From a virus: a DNA stretch of 20,654 nt. Below are positions 3,476 to 12,326 of the stretch, piece by piece. The notes under the pieces are model-generated. The model was not told the DNA's origin. It made no database searches and was given only the letters and a program-made list of their open reading frames with translations. Numbering within the stretch: position 1 is the stretch's first letter; each line of letters begins with the position of its first letter. The stretch lies in IMG/VR virus record IMGVR_UViG_3300035703_000460, positions 1-20,654 of that record. One strand, given 5' to 3'. A program made the translations under genes and the position numbers.

Positions 3476-3838
3476 TTACTGAGTAATCCTATTCACATAG
3501 CCGTGCAAGTTAATAACACTAGCGGTACCAGCAAAAGCACGAACAACCAAAGCAGTGGCGTTACCCTTAAGAACCAAGCCAGGGGTAATAAGAACCAAGC
3601 CAGACTCAGCGGGAATGGTAATTTCAATCAGATCGTCTGGAGAAGTTGTTCCTCCCCATTCAATAGTCAACTTCACGTTAGAAGTGCTAGTGTTCTGGGC
3701 GTACAACCAGATCTCGTCAAACTGAGATGTGCTAGTAGGACCAGTATGAATCGTCGTGCCAGGGGTTGCGGTTGACGCAACCTTGACAGCACGACCATCA
3801 GTTGATGCACTAAGTTTATCTTTAGCAAAAGTAGCCAT
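3476..3838 (-). CDS. Conserved small phage structural protein
   Basis: 120 residues, no cysteine, all beta-like. It starts MATFAKDKLSASTDGRAVKV and contains the T-P-G-T-T-I-H-T-G segment and an L-T-I-E-W-G-G-T-T strand region. I recognise the pattern from aquatic phage structural regions, where it is unassigned. GGAGT lies six bases before the ATG (good ribosome site) and the gene sits three bases from the next gene of the block. Probably a small virion or fibre-associated beta-sandwich; the exact role is unknown. Confidence 0.75.
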   Translation of the reverse strand: MATFAKDKLSASTDGRAVKVASTATPGTTIHTGPTSTSQFDEIWLYAQNTSTSNVKLTIEWGGTTSPDDLIEITIPAESGLVLITPGLVLKGNATALVVRAFAGTASVINLHGYVNRITQ

Positions 3839-6386: not shown

Positions 6387-6697
6387 AACAGTCATACACA
6401 ATCCCACCCCTAGTGGAAGTGTTCTGGTGGGATCACTACAGTATTGGTGACGACTGGTATCATAAAGGACATCGCCATGACCCCTGCATACTTAGCGCCG
6501 TAGGGTATGTTGTCGATGAAAACGAATACTACTACTGGGTGGCATCCACCTATGAGGTGTCCAACGGAGCCTACTCTAGTGGTACTGCCGTACTGAAGAA
6601 TTGTGTGACGCAACTCAATGAGTTGCGTCCCGCTAGTACCGTCAACTGGGATGGCACACCAGTGTCCAAGGCGATTACATCAGGGCGACGCAAATAG
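6380..6697 (+). CDS. Hypothetical protein, aromatic-rich
   Basis: 105 residues (MVKQSYTIPPLVEVFWWDHY...), rich in W and Y (ENEYYYWVASTYEV), two cysteines, basic end. No family recognised. It differs from the four basic proteins before it and resembles a small beta-barrel, but this is a guess. It overlaps the upstream gene by seven bases; AAGG lies four bases before the ATG, and a GTG one codon later is an alternative start. Last gene of the operon, before the terminator. Confidence 0.7.
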   Translation: MVKQSYTIPPLVEVFWWDHYSIGDDWYHKGHRHDPCILSAVGYVVDENEYYYWVASTYEVSNGAYSSGTAVLKNCVTQLNELRPASTVNWDGTPVSKAITSGRRK

Positions 6698-6706
6698 TAT
6701 CCCATC

Positions 6707-6725
6707 GGATACCGCAAGGGTATCC
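6707..6725 (+). repeat. Small hairpin downstream of the basic-protein operon
   Basis: GGATACC (6707-6713) pairs with GGTATCC (6719-6725), seven pairs and a five-base loop. A second AT-rich inverted repeat follows: CGTTTTA (6729-6735) with TAAAACG (6745-6751). Both lie between the last stop (6697) and the likely terminator, so they may stabilise the transcript 3' end. Confidence 0.5.
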
Positions 6726-6753
6726 AATCGTTTTAAAATAATTATAAAACGTG

Positions 6754-6791
6754 GGACTCCGTTTCCAAACATGGGGGCGGGGTCCTTTTTT
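6754..6791 (+). terminator. Likely rho-independent terminator
   Basis: GGACTCC (6754-6760) pairs with GGGGTCC (6779-6785), seven pairs including one G-T, with an 18-base loop, followed by TTTTTT (6786-6791). Position after the five-gene rightward operon fits. The loop is long, so strength is uncertain. Confidence 0.6.
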
Positions 6792-7209
6792 GTCCCCAAA
6801 CACCTGAGGGTATCCGAATCATATTTTCATAGTCAGATGGCTACGCGTTATTATAGTATCTATTGGAAGAACCTACATATGCCCCCCAGGGTGGGGGGGG
6901 TGCCGCGCGATTTTCGGTACGGTACGGGGTAGGGTATGCCCATTTCCCCAAGAAAAAAAAAGAAAGATAGTACCCCTACCCCTAGGGGTATAGGACATGG
7001 GACATGGGGCGACATGGGGCAGAGCGGGCGGGCGACTAGGCGGGGTCCCGATTGGGTTGTGGTTGGTTGGTGTCGGTTGGTTGGTGAAGGGCGGCGGATT
7101 CTATCTGGTTGGGTGTGTGGATTCCAACCAATTCTGTAGGTTGGTACATATGTCACTACTTGCCGTTTGGTGTTGCCATTCTTCTAGAAACCTGGTACCG
7201 TTCTTCTCA
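6792..7209. other. Gene-free G-rich region with short repeats
   Basis: About 420 bases with no credible gene. From about 6880 the plus strand is very rich in G: a run of G at 6893-6900, GACATGGG-type repeats near 6993-7020, and a 12-base direct repeat GGTTGGTTGGTG at 7061-7072 and 7075-7086. A 14-base palindrome TACCCCTAGGGGTA lies at 6977-6990, and an A-run at about 6953-6961. A frame continuous with the next gene crosses part of it but lacks a start signal. Candidate origin or regulatory region; not proven. Confidence 0.5.
7061..7086 (+). repeat. Tandem GGTTGGTTGGTG repeat, possible G-quadruplex
   Basis: Two perfect 12-base copies separated by TC, preceded by GGGTTGTGGTTGG-like sequence. 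Eight or more GG pairs spaced by TT or TGT fit a two-layer G-quadruplex on the plus strand. It lies inside the gene-free region. Confidence 0.6.
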
Positions 7210-7228
7210 TCGGAGCGAGCCGCTCCGA
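7210..7228 (+). repeat. Hairpin upstream of first array gene
   Basis: TCGGAGCG (7210-7217) pairs perfectly with CGCTCCGA (7221-7228), loop AGC. It ends six bases before the GAAAGG leader of the gene starting at 7252. First of a series of palindromes near gene starts in this array. Confidence 0.7.
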
Positions 7229-7251
7229 CTGACCGAAAGGTAGGTAGGGCT

Positions 7252-7569
7252 ATGAAGGTTAGGGACTTGTCGCCGTTGGTGACAGATTGGCAGAATGGCA
7301 AAACACGGTACGCTAGTACGTGGTCTAGTATTGACACTGTAAAGGTTTTCGCCGTTGGCAATAATGGTGATGCCGTAGCCTGTCGGCAGATTTTCCACTA
7401 CTCCACTCTCATGGGAGAATTCTACGAAACTAACGGCATTTGGGTGTTCGTTCCATGTTCTACTGGTTGGGGTAGTGCCTCTGACCAAAAGGGTATGAAT
7501 CAGATTTTGGACGGTATGGGCATGAAGTATCGTCGTAATGGTGGCAATCCCCGCTATGATTTCGTGTGA
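7252..7569 (+). CDS. Hypothetical protein, first gene of small-gene array
   Basis: 105 residues from ATG 7252 (MKVRDLSPLVTDWQNGKTRY...). The frame is open much further upstream, but the shared leader GAAAGG-N-AGGTAGGG immediately before 7252 matches those of the following genes and fixes the start. The protein has a beta-rich look (VKVFAVGNNGDAVACRQIF) and a basic end with MKYRRNGGNPRYDFV. No family recognised. A palindrome upstream (7210-7228) and one downstream (7582-7607) frame the gene as a separate unit. Confidence 0.7.
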   Translation: MKVRDLSPLVTDWQNGKTRYASTWSSIDTVKVFAVGNNGDAVACRQIFHYSTLMGEFYETNGIWVFVPCSTGWGSASDQKGMNQILDGMGMKYRRNGGNPRYDFV

Positions 7570-7581
7570 CTAATGGTGGAA

Positions 7582-7607
7582 TGGTTGGGGACTTGTGTCC
7601 CCAACCA
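7582..7607 (+). repeat. GGGGAC-N4-GTCCCC hairpin, copy 1
   Basis: TGGTTGGGGAC (7582-7592) pairs perfectly with GTCCCCAACCA (7597-7607), loop TTGT. No T-run follows. The core GGGGAC-N4-GTCCCC recurs at 8776-8803 and 9511-9536. Confidence 0.75.
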
Positions 7608-7659
7608 ACAAACCAAGATAGGTTATTAGTGTTCGTTTACAATCGAAAGGGTTAGGGAT

Positions 7660-7884
7660 ATGACGAAGAATGTTTATTCGTGGGATCGTGACAGTAACGG
7701 TGGATACGATTTTGTATGTGCCACATTTAGGGCATATGTTTGGCGAGATAAGTCCGACTATGGTGATATTCAATGGTATGGAGACATACACTATTTTGAT
7801 GGTAGGAACATGGGCTACGAACATATCCAAGTAGATTACCTTAATGATATTCGTAGGGCTCTTGTTAGTAAGGCTAGTGAATAG
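7660..7884 (+). CDS. Hypothetical small aromatic/acidic protein
   Basis: 74 residues (MTKNVYSWDRDSNGGYDFVC...), rich in Y, W and D, no clear domain. It begins after GAAAGGGTTAGGGAT, a form of the shared array leader, about 50 bases after hairpin 7582-7607. The length and composition suit the small early-type phage proteins of this block. Function unknown. Confidence 0.68.
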   Translation: MTKNVYSWDRDSNGGYDFVCATFRAYVWRDKSDYGDIQWYGDIHYFDGRNMGYEHIQVDYLNDIRRALVSKASE

Positions 7885-7900
7885 TATTTCTTTTAGTTTA

Positions 7901-7962
7901 GGGCTAGCATGTATGGTACTGGCGACGTTTGTCGTGATGTGGTTCGAGTCCACGCTAGTCCA
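7901..7962 (+). ncRNA. Compact tRNA-like element
   Basis: GGGCTAG (7901-7907) can pair with CTAGTCC (7955-7961) as a seven-pair acceptor stem with one G-T, followed by A as discriminator. The T arm is near canonical: TGTGG, loop TTCGAGT, CCACG (7938-7954). The middle is too short for a normal D arm plus anticodon arm: 30 bases, containing CGAC-GTTT-GTCG, a hairpin with a four-base loop. I cannot place a seven-base anticodon loop, so it is not a standard tRNA. It could be a degenerate tRNA, a tRNA mimic or a vestigial attachment site. No CCA is encoded. Confidence 0.5.
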
Positions 7963-7964
7963 CT

Positions 7965-7982
7965 ACCGAACAAATGTTCGGT
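7965..7982 (+). repeat. Hairpin upstream of array gene at 8004
   Basis: ACCGAAC (7965-7971) pairs with GTTCGGT (7976-7982), seven pairs and a four-base loop. It follows directly on the tRNA-like element and ends a few bases before the AGAAAGG leader. Confidence 0.6.
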
Positions 7983-8003
7983 CATATCAGAAAGGTTAGG
8001 GAA

Positions 8004-8291
8004 ATGGAAACGAAAGAATCGTTTATGTTGGACGCTTGTACCGATTGTGCTATGGCAGTAGCGAACGGCACTAGGGACGCTATGGAGAATCTTGAGTACC
8101 ATACATCAGGAGACTACGCTAGTGAGTGGTTGGACTCTTTCTCTCAGGCTAGTGAACGTTGGTTTTCTAAAGGCTACGTTTTGGTGAACGGTAGCGAGGA
8201 AGATGACACTACGTTTTCGTGGTCATCTTGTGATGTTTGTGGCTCTCGTCTTGGTGGCAGTAGGATGTCAGTAGTGGCTATCCCAATGTGA
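8004..8291 (+). CDS. Small phage protein with two C-x2-C pairs
   Basis: 95 residues from ATG 8004, set by the leader AGAAAGGTTAGGGAA; an in-frame ATG at 7974 lies inside the upstream hairpin loop and is rejected. Motifs: D-A-C-T-D-C-A-M-A-V-A-N-G near residues 10-22, and F-S-W-S-S-C-D-V-C-G-S-R-L-G-G-S-R near the C-terminus. This CxxC ... F-S-W-x-x-C-x-x-C-G-S-x-L-G-G-x-R pattern recurs in small phage proteins and probably binds zinc. Function unknown. Its stop codon lies inside the palindrome 8286-8303. Confidence 0.75.
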   Translation: METKESFMLDACTDCAMAVANGTRDAMENLEYHTSGDYASEWLDSFSQASERWFSKGYVLVNGSEEDDTTFSWSSCDVCGSRLGGSRMSVVAIPM

Positions 8292-8303
8292 CGAACGTCA
8301 CAT
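8286..8303 (+). repeat. Palindrome over stop codon of 8004 gene
   Basis: ATGTGACG (8286-8293) pairs with CGTCACAT (8296-8303), two-base centre. It spans the TGA stop (8289-8291) and ends ten bases before the -35 box at 8313, so it could be an operator for that promoter or a transcript-end hairpin. Confidence 0.65.
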
Positions 8304-8312
8304 GTTATTGAC

Positions 8313-8341
8313 TTGACACTAGGGTGCCATTGGGTTAGTGT
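8313..8341 (+). promoter_or_regulatory. Putative sigma70-type promoter for the ArdA-like gene
   Basis: TTGACA (8313-8318), 17-base spacer, TAGTGT (8336-8341). The -35 box is perfect and the -10 box is moderate. Transcription would begin near 8348, about 37 bases before the ATG at 8385. Confidence 0.6.
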
Positions 8342-8384
8342 GTTTCTTGTAGGTAAACAACAACAGAAAAGGTAGGGTAGGAAA

Positions 8385-8744
8385 ATGGAAACAGATAACG
8401 TGGACACAATCGAAATTGTGGACATGGAGACTAGAGCAGAATGGTTGGTCGAAGAGTCCATTTTAGATAGTGACCACGAACAAGCGTTCGTAATCTTCTG
8501 CGATTGGTTGGGCTACGAGTACGATGATGAGTCTACCGATTGGGCTAGCGTTGTATCGGATTTCGTTGACTCATTCTGTGGCGAGTATTCTAGCCATGAA
8601 GATTTTGTCATGGAGTACATGTGTGACATGATTGACGATATTCCCGATTGGGTTATCGGTCATATCGATTGGTCTAGCGTTTGGAATTGTGAACTACGCT
8701 ACGACTTTTACGAAGAGAATGGTCACTACTTTCGGAACATCTAG
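8385..8744 (+). CDS. ArdA-like antirestriction DNA-mimic protein
   Basis: 119 residues with about 33 D/E against three arginines and no lysine, so extremely acidic. The C-terminal half (GEYSSHEDFVMEYMCDMIDD, then I-D-W ... YDFYEENGHYFRNI) follows the layout of ArdA-type proteins, which copy the charge of B-form DNA and block type I restriction enzymes. Classical ArdA is about 165-170 residues, so this would be a short form; the N-terminal domain looks reduced. It has its own promoter (8313-8341) and the array leader (GAAAAGGTAGGGTAGGAAA). An unrelated acidic protein with a similar tail is the alternative. Confidence 0.62.
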   Translation: METDNVDTIEIVDMETRAEWLVEESILDSDHEQAFVIFCDWLGYEYDDESTDWASVVSDFVDSFCGEYSSHEDFVMEYMCDMIDDIPDWVIGHIDWSSVWNCELRYDFYEENGHYFRNI

Positions 8745-8775
8745 CAAGGTCAACTAGGGTAGCATGATGTGGTGT

Positions 8776-8803
8776 GATGTTGGGGACTATTGTCCCCAAC
8801 ATC
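8776..8803 (+). repeat. GGGGAC-N4-GTCCCC hairpin, copy 2
   Basis: GATGTTGGGGAC (8776-8787) pairs perfectly with GTCCCCAACATC (8792-8803), loop TATT, twelve pairs. No T-run follows. About 68 bases upstream of the next start. Confidence 0.75.
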
Positions 8804-8871
8804 TACCGAAACAATAAAACATATAGTCTAGTATTTCACTAGGCATTTACAACAAAAGGATGGGTAGGAAA

Positions 8872-9225
8872 ATGTATACGGTATCGGAACGTAGGGCATA
8901 CGAACGTGGCAAGGATCAGGGCATTAGCGACAATTTTCAGGACTACTACAATGAGGCACCACTATCGGGAGAATGGGCAGGCTATAGTCCGAAAGAAATT
9001 TTGGGCGACTTGTTCCCCGAATATGAAGATACGGTAGAGTATTTCGCAGAGAGTGGCGCTATCTGTGACGCGTATACTGAGGGTTACCAATCGGCATTCG
9101 TCGATCGTGTTTTCTGTGATGAGTGTGGCACATTGGTTAACCCTAATGATGGTGTCACGGATGATGTGTTCGTTTACTGTGGTTCGATGTTCGGTAATGG
9201 TTGTGCCGAAAAGATGGTGGCATGA
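8872..9225 (+). CDS. Acidic small protein with C-terminal zinc-ribbon-like cysteines
   Basis: 117 residues from ATG 8872 (MYTVSERRAYERGKDQGISD). The ATG at 8860 overlaps the leader AAAAGGATGGGTAGGAAA and is less likely. A helical front half with E-R-G-K-D-Q-G and Y-T-E-G-Y-Q-S-A-F motifs is followed by F-C-D-E-C-G-T-L and later V-Y-C-G and N-G-C-A-E, which could form a four-cysteine zinc site. Ends KMVA. Related in style to the gene at 9562, which also has a Y-R-D-G-Y / G-Y-C-D-G pair. Function unknown. Confidence 0.7.
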   Translation: MYTVSERRAYERGKDQGISDNFQDYYNEAPLSGEWAGYSPKEILGDLFPEYEDTVEYFAESGAICDAYTEGYQSAFVDRVFCDECGTLVNPNDGVTDDVFVYCGSMFGNGCAEKMVA

Positions 9226-9226
9226 C

Positions 9227-9255
9227 TTGACAAGCGTGAACATCTAGGATATGAT
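9227..9255 (+). promoter_or_regulatory. Strong sigma70-type promoter
   Basis: TTGACA (9227-9232), exactly 17 bases, TATGAT (9250-9255): a perfect -35 and a near-perfect -10. It begins two bases after the stop of the previous gene. The start of transcription would be near 9262, inside the hairpin at 9260-9278, so the RNA would begin with that stem-loop. Confidence 0.82.
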
Positions 9256-9259
9256 TTGA

Positions 9260-9278
9260 TTATCGGAAAGTCCGATAA
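9260..9278 (+). repeat. 5'-end hairpin of the 9298 transcript
   Basis: TTATCGGA (9260-9267) pairs with TCCGATAA (9271-9278), loop AAG. It lies at the predicted start of transcription from the 9227-9255 promoter and 19 bases before the next ATG. Confidence 0.7.
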
Positions 9279-9297
9279 CAGTAGAAAGGATTAGGGA

Positions 9298-9501
9298 ATG
9301 AGTAAGCGTAATGCTAGTGAGGGAATGTATCGTGATGTGTATTGGTATCGGCACCATTGGGGATTGGAATTGGCACACTACCCTGGCGATGGTGACTATA
9401 GGGTGATGAGAAAGGTAGTTTGGGATAGCGACTACCCTGTTACCGTAAAGTCTAGTGTCGATGAATTTCTTAATGACATTGCTAGTGGGTTAGTCAAGTG
9501 A
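9298..9501 (+). CDS. Hypothetical 67-residue protein
   Basis: 67 residues (MSKRNASEGMYRDVYWYRHH...), rich in aromatic residues, ending VDEFLNDIASGLVK. No family recognised. It has the clearest expression signals of the array: consensus promoter, 5' hairpin, leader AGAAAGGATTAGGGA directly before ATG. Palindrome copy 3 follows the stop by nine bases. It is expected to be strongly expressed, probably early; that is inference from the promoter. Confidence 0.7.
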   Translation: MSKRNASEGMYRDVYWYRHHWGLELAHYPGDGDYRVMRKVVWDSDYPVTVKSSVDEFLNDIASGLVK

Positions 9502-9510
9502 AATTAGATT

Positions 9511-9536
9511 GTGGTGGGGACGTTGGTCCCCACCAC
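9511..9536 (+). repeat. GGGGAC-N4-GTCCCC hairpin, copy 3
   Basis: GTGGTGGGGAC (9511-9521) pairs perfectly with GTCCCCACCAC (9526-9536), loop GTTG, eleven pairs. No T-run follows. It lies 25 bases upstream of the next ATG. Confidence 0.75.
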
Positions 9537-9561
9537 ACCAACAACAAAAGGATCAGGGACA

Positions 9562-9867
9562 ATGAACGAAAACAAATGGTCGTATTCGATAGTCATTCGC
9601 AAGGGCTATCGTGATGGGTACTCAGATTATGCTAATGGTTTCTATAATCGTAGATCACCTAGCGAGATTATGGCATGGTTGATCGACGTTGATCTAGGTG
9701 AAGAATTTTATGATGATTACATGATTGGCTACTGTGATGGTATCAAGGATGCCATTGGAGAAAAGCAGGATGATGAAGAGCGTACTCTTCGTGAAAAGCA
9801 TGACGAAGAATCCACTCATGTTAATTGGGTTCTGCTACACATGTTGAACAAAGAATTGGTGGCATGA
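9562..9867 (+). CDS. Acidic helical hypothetical protein
   Basis: 101 residues from ATG 9562, set by the leader CAAAAGGATCAGGGACA; the in-frame GTG at 9511 lies in the hairpin and is rejected. The sequence has R-K-G-Y-R-D-G-Y-S-D-Y-A-N-G-F and later G-Y-C-D-G-I-K-D-A, a repeat-like G-Y-x-D-G element also seen loosely in the 8872 protein, then a charged helix (KQDDEERTLREKHDEES). Family unknown. Its stop overlaps the next start (ATGATG), and GGTGG in its last codons can serve as ribosome site for that gene. Confidence 0.7.
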   Translation: MNENKWSYSIVIRKGYRDGYSDYANGFYNRRSPSEIMAWLIDVDLGEEFYDDYMIGYCDGIKDAIGEKQDDEERTLREKHDEESTHVNWVLLHMLNKELVA

Positions 9868-10040
9868 TGTTCACTAGATGTGATTGTTGTGGAGTCATCG
9901 ACGGTACTGTCGATGGTGGATTGTGCGATGAATGTTTTAGTCATCTGCCAGATGGTCGATGGGTTTTCTCAGATGACTTGGTGGATATCGTCAGTAATGG
10001 TACTGCCATTGTGCCATCCTCTGATTGGCTAGAAAGGTAG
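9864..10040 (+). CDS. Small zinc-ribbon protein
   Basis: 58 residues starting at ATG 9864 (or 9867). CDCC (residues 6-9) and CDEC (21-24) form a compact zinc ribbon (RCDCCGVIDGTVDGGLCDEC), followed by a D/V-rich tail. Overlaps the upstream stop in ATGATG. Function unknown; such mini ribbons are common in phage accessory regions. The end of this gene (GAAAGGTAG) doubles as the purine leader of the next gene. Confidence 0.7.
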   Translation: MMFTRCDCCGVIDGTVDGGLCDECFSHLPDGRWVFSDDLVDIVSNGTAIVPSSDWLER

Positions 10041-10044
10041 GATG

Positions 10045-10209
10045 ATGGAAACATTCGAATATGTACCGTACTCTAGATGGGGACGAAACAATTTTGTGAA
10101 CGTCTGTGGTCATTGTGGTGCCACTCTAGAGTACCTAGATAAGTCAGATAGTTATGTCAACGATTGGCATCACGAACACGAACACAATGAAAGTAGGATT
10201 GGAAAATGA
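10045..10209 (+). CDS. Small zinc-finger-like protein
   Basis: 54 residues from ATG 10045 (alternative ATG 10042). CGHC at residues 21-24 and a histidine-rich end (DWHHEHEHNE) could bind one zinc. AGAAAGGTAGGA, the array leader, sits just upstream inside the previous gene. The stop overlaps the next start (AAATGA). No family recognised. Confidence 0.65.
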   Translation: METFEYVPYSRWGRNNFVNVCGHCGATLEYLDKSDSYVNDWHHEHEHNESRIGK

Positions 10210-10718
10210 AAACATTGGGAAATAAATATACGAACGTAGAAACAGTCGCCAACGATTTGGTGTATGGGGATGATGTCGAATTGGATGATGGTCGTATCAT
10301 CCGATTGTTGGTGTCTCAGGATGATTGGGATACTACTAGCATGATCGACGAAGATTTGTTCGGTCGATTGGAATACATCGACTATCATGGATATGGTCGT
10401 GATCGTGTTCGCCCCGATTGGTGTGATGGTTCGGGACGTATCATCCATACGATGAATGGTGGTTCGTATTGGTGGCAACCACCATCCGATATCAAGCATG
10501 ATGGTGACGCTATTCGCAAGATGTTCCGATATCTTGCGGATGTTTTGGAAAATGGCTACCAGATTGTCACTGTGGAATTGTGCCGAAACGAAACGGATTA
10601 CTATGGGGGACCCATCGTGGATGATATCGCTAGCCTTAGTAGCGTCGAGTGGTATGTTGGTGACGATATCTATCGTCGTGAGATTGTTGCCGACTTGTTG
10701 GCACAGATTGGATTGTGA
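10206..10718 (+). CDS. Conserved phage hypothetical protein with Y-W-W-Q-P-P motif
   Basis: 170 residues. The stretch SGRIIHTMNGGSYWWQPPSD and the following I-K-H-D-G-D-A-I, a helix Y-L-A-D-V-L-E-N-G-Y, V-T-V-E-L-C and Y-Y-G-G-P-I-V-D-D-I-A-S-L match a protein seen in many actinobacteriophage-like genomes, always without a known role. Acidic overall. It starts in an ATGA overlap with the zinc-finger gene, with GAAAGTAGGATTGGAAA as leader, and ends in a TGATG overlap with the next gene. I regard the family as real and uncharacterised. Confidence 0.78.
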   Translation: MKTLGNKYTNVETVANDLVYGDDVELDDGRIIRLLVSQDDWDTTSMIDEDLFGRLEYIDYHGYGRDRVRPDWCDGSGRIIHTMNGGSYWWQPPSDIKHDGDAIRKMFRYLADVLENGYQIVTVELCRNETDYYGGPIVDDIASLSSVEWYVGDDIYRREIVADLLAQIGL

Positions 10719-10969
10719 TGTCACACAAGTACCGTGTCCTTAGTGTCCAATTCGTGGACGTATTCGCTAGCGATGTTGAGGACGCCGTTCGTATTGCGAA
10801 CGACTACTATGTCTCTAGTGGTCACCCTTTAGATACCCCTAGGGGTATGCGATATGCGGTCACTGGGTACGACTATGAGAGTGGTCTTGACCAGGATACT
10901 TTGATGACCATTGGTATCGACGTTGATGATACCGATAATGGTTTCGTTCCGATCAACGACCCGTTCTAG
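10718..10969 (+). CDS. Hypothetical acidic protein
   Basis: 83 residues from ATG 10718 (MSHKYRVLSVQFVDVFASDV...), overlapping the upstream stop by one base; an in-frame GTG at 10715 is an alternative start. Pattern V-F-A-S-D-V-E-D-A-V-R-I-A-N and a D-rich end fit a small alpha/beta protein. Contains the 16-base palindrome ATACCCCTAGGGGTAT near 10833-10848 inside the coding region. No family recognised. Confidence 0.68.
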   Translation: MSHKYRVLSVQFVDVFASDVEDAVRIANDYYVSSGHPLDTPRGMRYAVTGYDYESGLDQDTLMTIGIDVDDTDNGFVPINDPF

Positions 10970-12282: not shown

Positions 12283-12326
12283 GTGATTGTATCATCCCCC
12301 CTATGGGGGGGGGATGATACAATCAC
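12283..12326 (+). repeat. Nineteen-pair perfect hairpin before replication operon
   Basis: GTGATTGTATCATCCCCCC (12283-12301) pairs base for base with its complement at 12308-12326; loop TATGGG. There are nine G in a row. No T-run follows on either strand, so it is not a typical terminator. It ends 25 bases before the ATG at 12352 and would make a long double-stranded RNA, or a cruciform or operator in DNA. Confidence 0.85.

Follow-up and report, generated by a model that had tools for sequence, protein, structure and literature searches.

A tRNA-like element and conserved hairpins at the gene borders of an uncultured virus suggest RNA-based punctuation of phage mRNA

Background

In mitochondrial transcripts, tRNA folds lying between the genes mark the sites at which polycistronic RNA is cut. 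In phages, Perreault et al. (2011) described clustered prophage hammerheads that flank single genes and proposed that long transcripts are thereby divided into mRNAs of gene length; these ribozymes self-cleaved in vitro as well as in the form of clones in E. coli (PMC3088659). Host ribonuclease P (RNase P) processes phage M3 RNA, the C4 antisense RNA of P1/P7, the gene 32 mRNA of T4 and polycistronic mRNAs (reviewed in PMC11143913). Finally, in cluster K mycobacteriophages start-associated sequences (SAS) and their extended form (ESAS) constitute a repeated, Shine-Dalgarno (SD)-containing sequence at the starts of non-structural genes, some with upstream inverted repeats; the ESAS repeats have a 17-bp consensus, RNA pairing was not supported for them, and they are thought to be bound by a protein (PMC3203893). 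Here we describe a tRNA-like element (TLE), hairpins and purine-rich leaders at the gene borders of a small-gene array (7252-10718) in the IMG/VR record IMGVR_UViG_3300035703_000460, a linear virus sequence of 20,654 bases which was analysed over its full length and is called the window in the following.

With respect to the prophage hammerheads, relatives of this phage likewise carry type-II hammerhead-like elements, whereas the window has no hammerhead but a core-less TLE at the equivalent place. The RNase P-processed phage and operon RNAs also contain tRNA-like or other folds within transcripts, which are there cut by host RNase P; here, in contrast, a recurrent hairpin-framed module is found at many borders in one phage group, and its cleavage is predicted. 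The TLEs resemble the tRNA-like domain of transfer-messenger RNA (tmRNA; RF00023) in their acceptor stem, T-arm and degenerate D region, in the missing anticodon arm and in a frequent G3:U70 pair and A73, but they have no mRNA-like domain or tag, are not called by Rfam or ARAGORN, carry G3:U70 in half of the cases, and occur several times per genome upstream of genes. Unlike the mitochondrial tRNAs they cannot decode. Unlike in the SAS and ESAS, the letters in the window differ while the pairing is kept, and neither the 13-bp SAS GGGATAGGAGCCC nor the 17-bp ESAS consensus repeats are present among the window's leaders and hairpin arms. Punctuation of phage mRNA by cleaving RNAs has been proposed before in the case of hammerheads (PMC3088659); the structures described below and their interchange have good support, and a tRNA mimic in such a role, the mechanism that fits them best, would be the new part. 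In literature searches on tRNA-like elements in phage mRNAs, in which subscription papers were thinly covered, neither a replacement of TLEs by hammerheads nor a tRNA-like punctuation was found.

Results

The gap 7885-8003 harbours a TLE of 61 nucleotides (nt) at 7901-7961, which was identified by T-arm scan, RNA folding, covariance model and descriptor (coordinates of features refer to the + strand of the window unless another locus is named). Its acceptor stem of 7 bp, formed by GGGCTAG (7901-7907) and CTAGTCC (7955-7961), is flush with the T-arm (7938-7954; TGTGG TTCGAGT CCACG), a D-loop-like TGGT (7914-7917) and a small variable hairpin (7922-7935) lie in between, and an anticodon arm is absent. 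An A-C-T tail (7962-7964) follows, which corresponds to tRNA positions 73-75 according to position counts in 32 T-arm-defined elements, and 2 nt after A73 a 7-bp hairpin (7965-7982) found by inverted-repeat search occupies the place that we call B, the place upstream of a TLE being A. Together, TLE and hairpin B fold with a z-score of -3.5, and 0/200 shuffles are equally stable. The TLE descriptor matches once on the + strand of the window and not on the - strand, as compared to one match in 300 shuffled whole windows, and with covariance model R2 the element is the best match in 6600-10800 (14.2 bits, E-value 0.056 in 4.2 kb). Neither Rfam nor ARAGORN calls it as a tRNA, and no known Rfam RNA or tRNA was found in the window.

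A T-arm scan of the virus's relatives revealed the same kind of element on the coding strand, mostly in gaps 55-150 nt ahead of a start codon and usually in the order stop codon, hairpin, TLE, hairpin, SD, ATG. In 1.58 Mb of relatives' sequence, a covariance model found 28 elements at E <= 1 and a refined model 39 at E <= 2, all on the coding (+) strand, and five matches from outside the training set, checked singly, again reside in gaps ahead of an SD and ATG. In 17 aligned TLEs all nine pairs are formed (100%), seven of them having changed on both sides, and 41 double-change cells are observed versus 12 expected, counts which are inflated because the 5' strand of the acceptor was chosen by best match, and which are not independent because several elements are orthologues. 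Alignments by MAFFT that contained N-padding or long variable arms misplaced this strand and were excluded from the counts. The covariation score is 0.733, as compared to 0.218 +/- 0.034 for shuffles, and slid controls do not exceed 0.108. In one relative (L033), four modules are found in four gaps of the small-gene array (112, 91, 112 and 112 nt), with compensatory changes between the copies.

The D-loop GG is present in 32/32 TLEs (0.52 expected), as are R73 and C74, and at position 75 T occurs 24 times, G and A four times each and C never, an avoidance of CCA that fits RNase Z. With an acceptor of 6-7 bp and a T-stem of 5 bp (about 12 bp when coaxially stacked), an elbow, and R73-C74, the elements have the features of an RNase P substrate; bacterial RNase P contacts these kept positions and ignores the anticodon arm. 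As in tRNAs there is an acceptor, a T-arm with a TTCRA loop and the D-loop GG, while the anticodon arm with its 7-nt loop is missing from the curated TLEs or replaced by a variable hairpin. ARAGORN and Rfam called none of the relatives' TLEs as a tRNA and yet called real tRNAs elsewhere on the same contigs, nor do the TLEs have the mRNA-like domain with a tag open reading frame or the Rfam match of a tmRNA (RF00023). Hairpin B begins 1-2 nt after R73 in most TLEs and has arms of at least 6 bp in 23/32; hairpin A often (in about half) ends 0-4 nt ahead of the TLE, its arms reaching at least 6 bp in 15/32.

Probable TLEs with the variant T-loops TCCGATT, TGCGATT and TGCAATT stand ahead of a gene for a protein of about 430 amino acids (aa) (L011:3805-3844, L091, L109), which suggests that the present counts underestimate the family. 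Short sets of TLE, hairpin and SD also exist outside the helicase-defined group (L150, - strand, at about 2353 of the reverse strand; L198, at about 5407). A broad scan of IMG/VR with the TLE pattern returned mostly real tRNAs and tmRNAs and is therefore no measure of the spread of TLEs.

In addition, 17 candidate type-II hammerhead-like elements, all intergenic and on the + strand, were found in 14 of the relatives' loci by means of the CUGAUGA/GAAA core and a three-stem descriptor. Their stems vary, and in a first group loop I and 3' tail are complementary, in keeping with published type-II hammerheads (PMC3088659). Since Rfam recognises one of them, in locus L034, slightly below its cut-off (RF02276, 34.6 bits, E = 0.003, gathering score 37), and does not recognise the longer-stem group, they remain candidates; in the window, neither Rfam nor the descriptor gave a hammerhead match. 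TLEs and hammerhead-like elements are interchanged ahead of homologous genes. By clustering of the downstream proteins, the gene for about 430 aa is preceded by a TLE in 11 instances and by a hammerhead-like element in four; the TLE of L033 is replaced by a hammerhead-like element in L034 and L037 (proteins 80-82% identical), and that of L004 by one in L107, L121 and L129. Two further cases depend on elements assigned by eye. When a type-II hammerhead cuts, the upstream RNA keeps stem III at its 3' end and the downstream RNA begins with stem I, and excision of a TLE from between hairpins A and B would result in the same end state. It is mainly because of this convergence that the TLE is read as a cleavage site.

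An initial annotation of the window had listed seven perfect inverted repeats upstream of array genes, and all seven were recovered: a perfect arm of at least 7 bp is found in 7/7 array gaps, as compared to a mean of 0.24 (maximum 2) in dinucleotide shuffles of those gaps and to only 8/92 of the 100-nt chunks of mostly coding sequence. Besides hairpin B of the TLE, inverted-repeat search and shuffles yielded an 8-bp hairpin 23 nt ahead of start 7252 and thus in B position (7210-7228), an 11-bp hairpin just past the stop of gene 7252-7569 (7582-7607), a 7-bp hairpin across the stop codon of gene 8004-8291 (8286-8303), a 12-bp hairpin in gap 8745-8871 with GGTAG/CTACC on its flanks (8776-8803), an 8-bp hairpin 19 nt ahead of start 9298 (9260-9278), and a 12-bp hairpin (9510-9537) which occupies the 60-nt gap from stop 9501 to start 9562. 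The hairpin at 8776-8803 is possibly a degenerate TLE, its model score of 4.8 bits being at noise level. A sigma-70-type promoter match from the promoter scan (TTGACA-17-TATGAT, 11/12) resides at 9227-9255, and its predicted transcription start falls about where hairpin 9260-9278 begins. As a set of promoters the array was rejected (10 promoter-like sites versus 9.1 in shuffles), only 9227-9255 standing out. The recurring fragments noticed earlier, ACTAGGGT-GC-AT, are indeed present at 8317-8330 and 8752-8766, and a third version, TTTAGGGCTAGCAT at about 7898, which had been overlooked, is the 5' strand of the TLE.

That arms vary while structure is kept, as had been supposed from the window, holds among the relatives as well. 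The 95 relative loci have 413 gaps with a length of 50-250 nt; a hairpin of at least 7 bp or a TLE is present in 195 of them, and such a hairpin is seen in 4.8% of shuffled gaps; arms of at least 10 bp occur in 53/413 gaps (2/2,065 shuffled gaps) and arms of 7-9 bp in 118 more. Judged from their stems of 11-19 bp, the long hairpins may be RNase III sites.

The double-purine leader that had been described for nine array starts is found at eight of them. The pattern AAAGG-N(1-8)-RGG-N(0-5)-ATG occurs eight times on the + strand of the array region and never on the - strand (shuffles: mean 0.13, maximum 3), and it is absent before the window's other genes. The eight leaders lie at 7236-7251 (gene 7252), 7646-7659 (gene 7660), 7989-8003 (AGAAAGGTTAGGGAA; gene 8004), 8368-8384 (gene 8385), 8855-8871 (gene 8872), 9284-9297 (gene 9298), 9546-9561 (gene 9562) and 10032-10044 (gene 10045 or 10042). 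Start 10206 has the divergent leader AAAGTAGGATTGG (10190-10205), with GAAAGTAGGA in place of AAAGG, and at two starts a further in-frame ATG lies a little upstream (8860, 10042). Since AGAAAGG is complementary to the final seven bases (CCUUUCU) of the usual actinobacterial 16S ribosomal RNA, the leader is read as a variant SD, most simply a phage-specific, extended one, and the distance of its GG from the start (7-12 bases) is normal for an SD. As a conserved regulatory motif shared by the cassettes, however, the leader did not hold up: AAGGAGG is used by most relatives and AAAGG by some (L033, L034), and the exact 18-letter pattern has 16 single-copy matches in IMG/VR, scattered over unrelated contigs at about chance level.

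A third structured RNA is found directly ahead of the SD in 14 loci, always on the + strand (L087:3502-3560, L094:3396-3454, L108:3180-3238 and 11 others). It forms a three-way junction in which ATTAG, CGTGAACG and AGCC are invariant, 11 of its 21 pairs covary, and the four of these loci that were scanned against Rfam gave no match at E <= 1; it is possibly a new ribozyme. In unrelated phage contigs, tmRNA-like RNAs of about 80 nt without an mRNA-like domain were observed (L131:2105-2185; L173:4069-4150 and L195:1755-1832, both on the - strand), which match both ends of RF00023 with the middle missing.

The left part of the record codes for packaging and structural proteins and the right part for an exonuclease, a DnaB-like helicase, a primase, and RusA-like and Mom-like proteins, the RusA-like assignment being based on gene position and a related record. 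The array lies between these blocks, in a slot that is filled by other small genes in relatives, and is preceded by a G-rich non-coding stretch of about 500 nt (6698-7200) with a T-tailed terminator (6753-6792). A 19-bp hairpin (12283-12326; inverted-repeat search and comparison with L004) precedes the exonuclease gene 12352, and at the same site L004, the closest relative, also carries a hairpin of 19 bp, though of other letters (3542-3583). DNA searches found no isolated phage close to this virus; the best match of its helicase (43%) comes from an uncultured 42-kb podovirus, a 23.8-kb stretch of which contains no convincing TLE. No relative was found among bacterial genome contigs, and none that is close by searching with gene 7252 alone. 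Distant homologues of the gene directly 3' of the TLE (8004-8291; 95 aa, phrog_3034) occur in phages of Microbacterium and Gordonia, which makes an actinobacterial host plausible.

Discussion

On balance, we consider it likely that the array is expressed from a polycistronic mRNA which is cut and capped by RNA modules at the gene borders. The array would be transcribed as one message, and RNA-cutting and RNA-capping modules would act between its genes. The transcript of gap 7885-8003 would fold into the TLE without an anticodon arm, which would be taken for a pre-tRNA and cut at its 5' and 3' sides by the RNase P of the host and probably by RNase Z as well. This would leave the message of gene 8004 with C, U and the hairpin 7965-7982 as protection at its 5' end, followed by the extended SD, and in relatives the hairpin just upstream of the TLE would cap the 3' end of the preceding message. 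The same ends might be reached by alternative routes, namely self-cutting by the type-II hammerhead-like elements of relatives, transcription that is initiated directly at a hairpin (promoter and hairpin at 9227-9278), or long hairpins as possible RNase III sites. For the hairpin-only gaps of the window, the model is carried over from the relatives and would apply by analogy.

Several observations weigh against this reading. In the window the sole clear TLE has a modest model score (14.2 bits) and no upstream hairpin, and 6/7 gaps are without a TLE or known ribozyme; about half of the relatives' long gaps are without a hairpin of at least 7 bp. The 5' strand of the acceptor was located by picking whichever sequence ahead of the T-arm matched best, and the acceptor length is either 6 or 7 bp. 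Among the hammerhead-like elements, the longer-stem candidates (L107, L121, L129, L095) are not listed by Rfam even at E <= 1, most of the 17 came from a descriptor that requires the core, and those in L039, L043 and two other loci were assigned by eye. Cleavage, the enzymes responsible and a stabilising effect in these uncultured phages are predictions from sequence.

Another explanation would be that the hairpins of the window simply act as ordinary factor-independent terminators or as generic stems that stabilise mRNA, and that the leader is a plain ribosome-binding site, with nothing special in the hairpin-only gaps. Several hairpins do lie directly past stop codons, and actinobacterial terminators may be without a U tract. 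However, a GC-rich stem with a T run on the + strand is found in 0/7 array hairpins, whereas the one clear terminator (6753-6792) has its T tract; four hairpins lie 19-24 nt ahead of start codons, and the TLE at 7901-7961 is left unexplained. We regard this explanation as unlikely.

Alternatively, the TLEs might act uncut as cis regulators of translation or transcription, be it as tRNA mimics bound by a protein or ligand or as antitermination elements. Such a role would be compatible with their position, which is always in sense orientation, for the most part some 55-150 nt ahead of the start codon, and directly followed by hairpin and SD, and tRNA-shaped regulators such as the yjdF riboswitch exist (PMC9142559). 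Yet no common alternative pairing that masks the SD was seen, acceptor and variable arm are free to differ among TLEs, and the replacement by hammerhead-like elements ahead of homologous genes points to cleavage, so that uncut regulators appear improbable.

If the TLEs were released, they could in turn serve as trans-acting small RNAs, e.g. as decoys for host tRNases, EF-Tu, alanyl-tRNA synthetase (AlaRS) or ribosome rescue, the message being a by-product. The G3:U70 pair of tmRNA and of alanine tRNAs, their identity pair, is present in 16/32 TLEs including that of the window, and tmRNA-like RNAs without an mRNA-like domain exist in other phages. This pair is missing in the other half, though, neither an encoded CCA nor an anticodon is present, and replacement by a hammerhead would not keep a trans function, which makes trans-acting RNAs very unlikely. 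Finally, although 3' tRNA ends are frequent at phage attachment sites (attP), it is hardly credible that the T-arms are attachment-site or tRNA-gene remnants of integration or gene capture, as there are as many as four per genome, in sense orientation only, with fixed spacing to the starts, no anticodon arm and no complete tRNA predicted there, and compensatory changes between copies are not expected of remnants.

Under the preferred reading of cut and capped messages, the proposal of the initial annotation that the accessory genes form modular cassettes with their own control element stands in part: the border modules are kept in structure and exchanged between phages, but they look like RNA-cleavage or RNA-end devices and not like promoters. 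More tentatively, and with a little more doubt than belief, we suggest that RNase P-dependent TLEs, hammerheads, long hairpins and the three-way-junction RNA, maybe a new ribozyme, form an interchangeable border kit that yields hairpin-capped monocistronic mRNAs.

Conclusions

Why phages have self-cleaving ribozymes has yet to be settled. The mutual replacement of TLEs and ribozymes ahead of homologous genes would, if the reading is true, give a direct and testable answer, namely that both cut the transcript there. It would further imply a viral tRNA mimicry that serves neither aminoacylation nor decoding, and a way of splitting operons without promoters or terminators. In that case, leaving a hairpin at both ends would be the rule by which accessory phage genes can be swapped without having to match their regulatory context.

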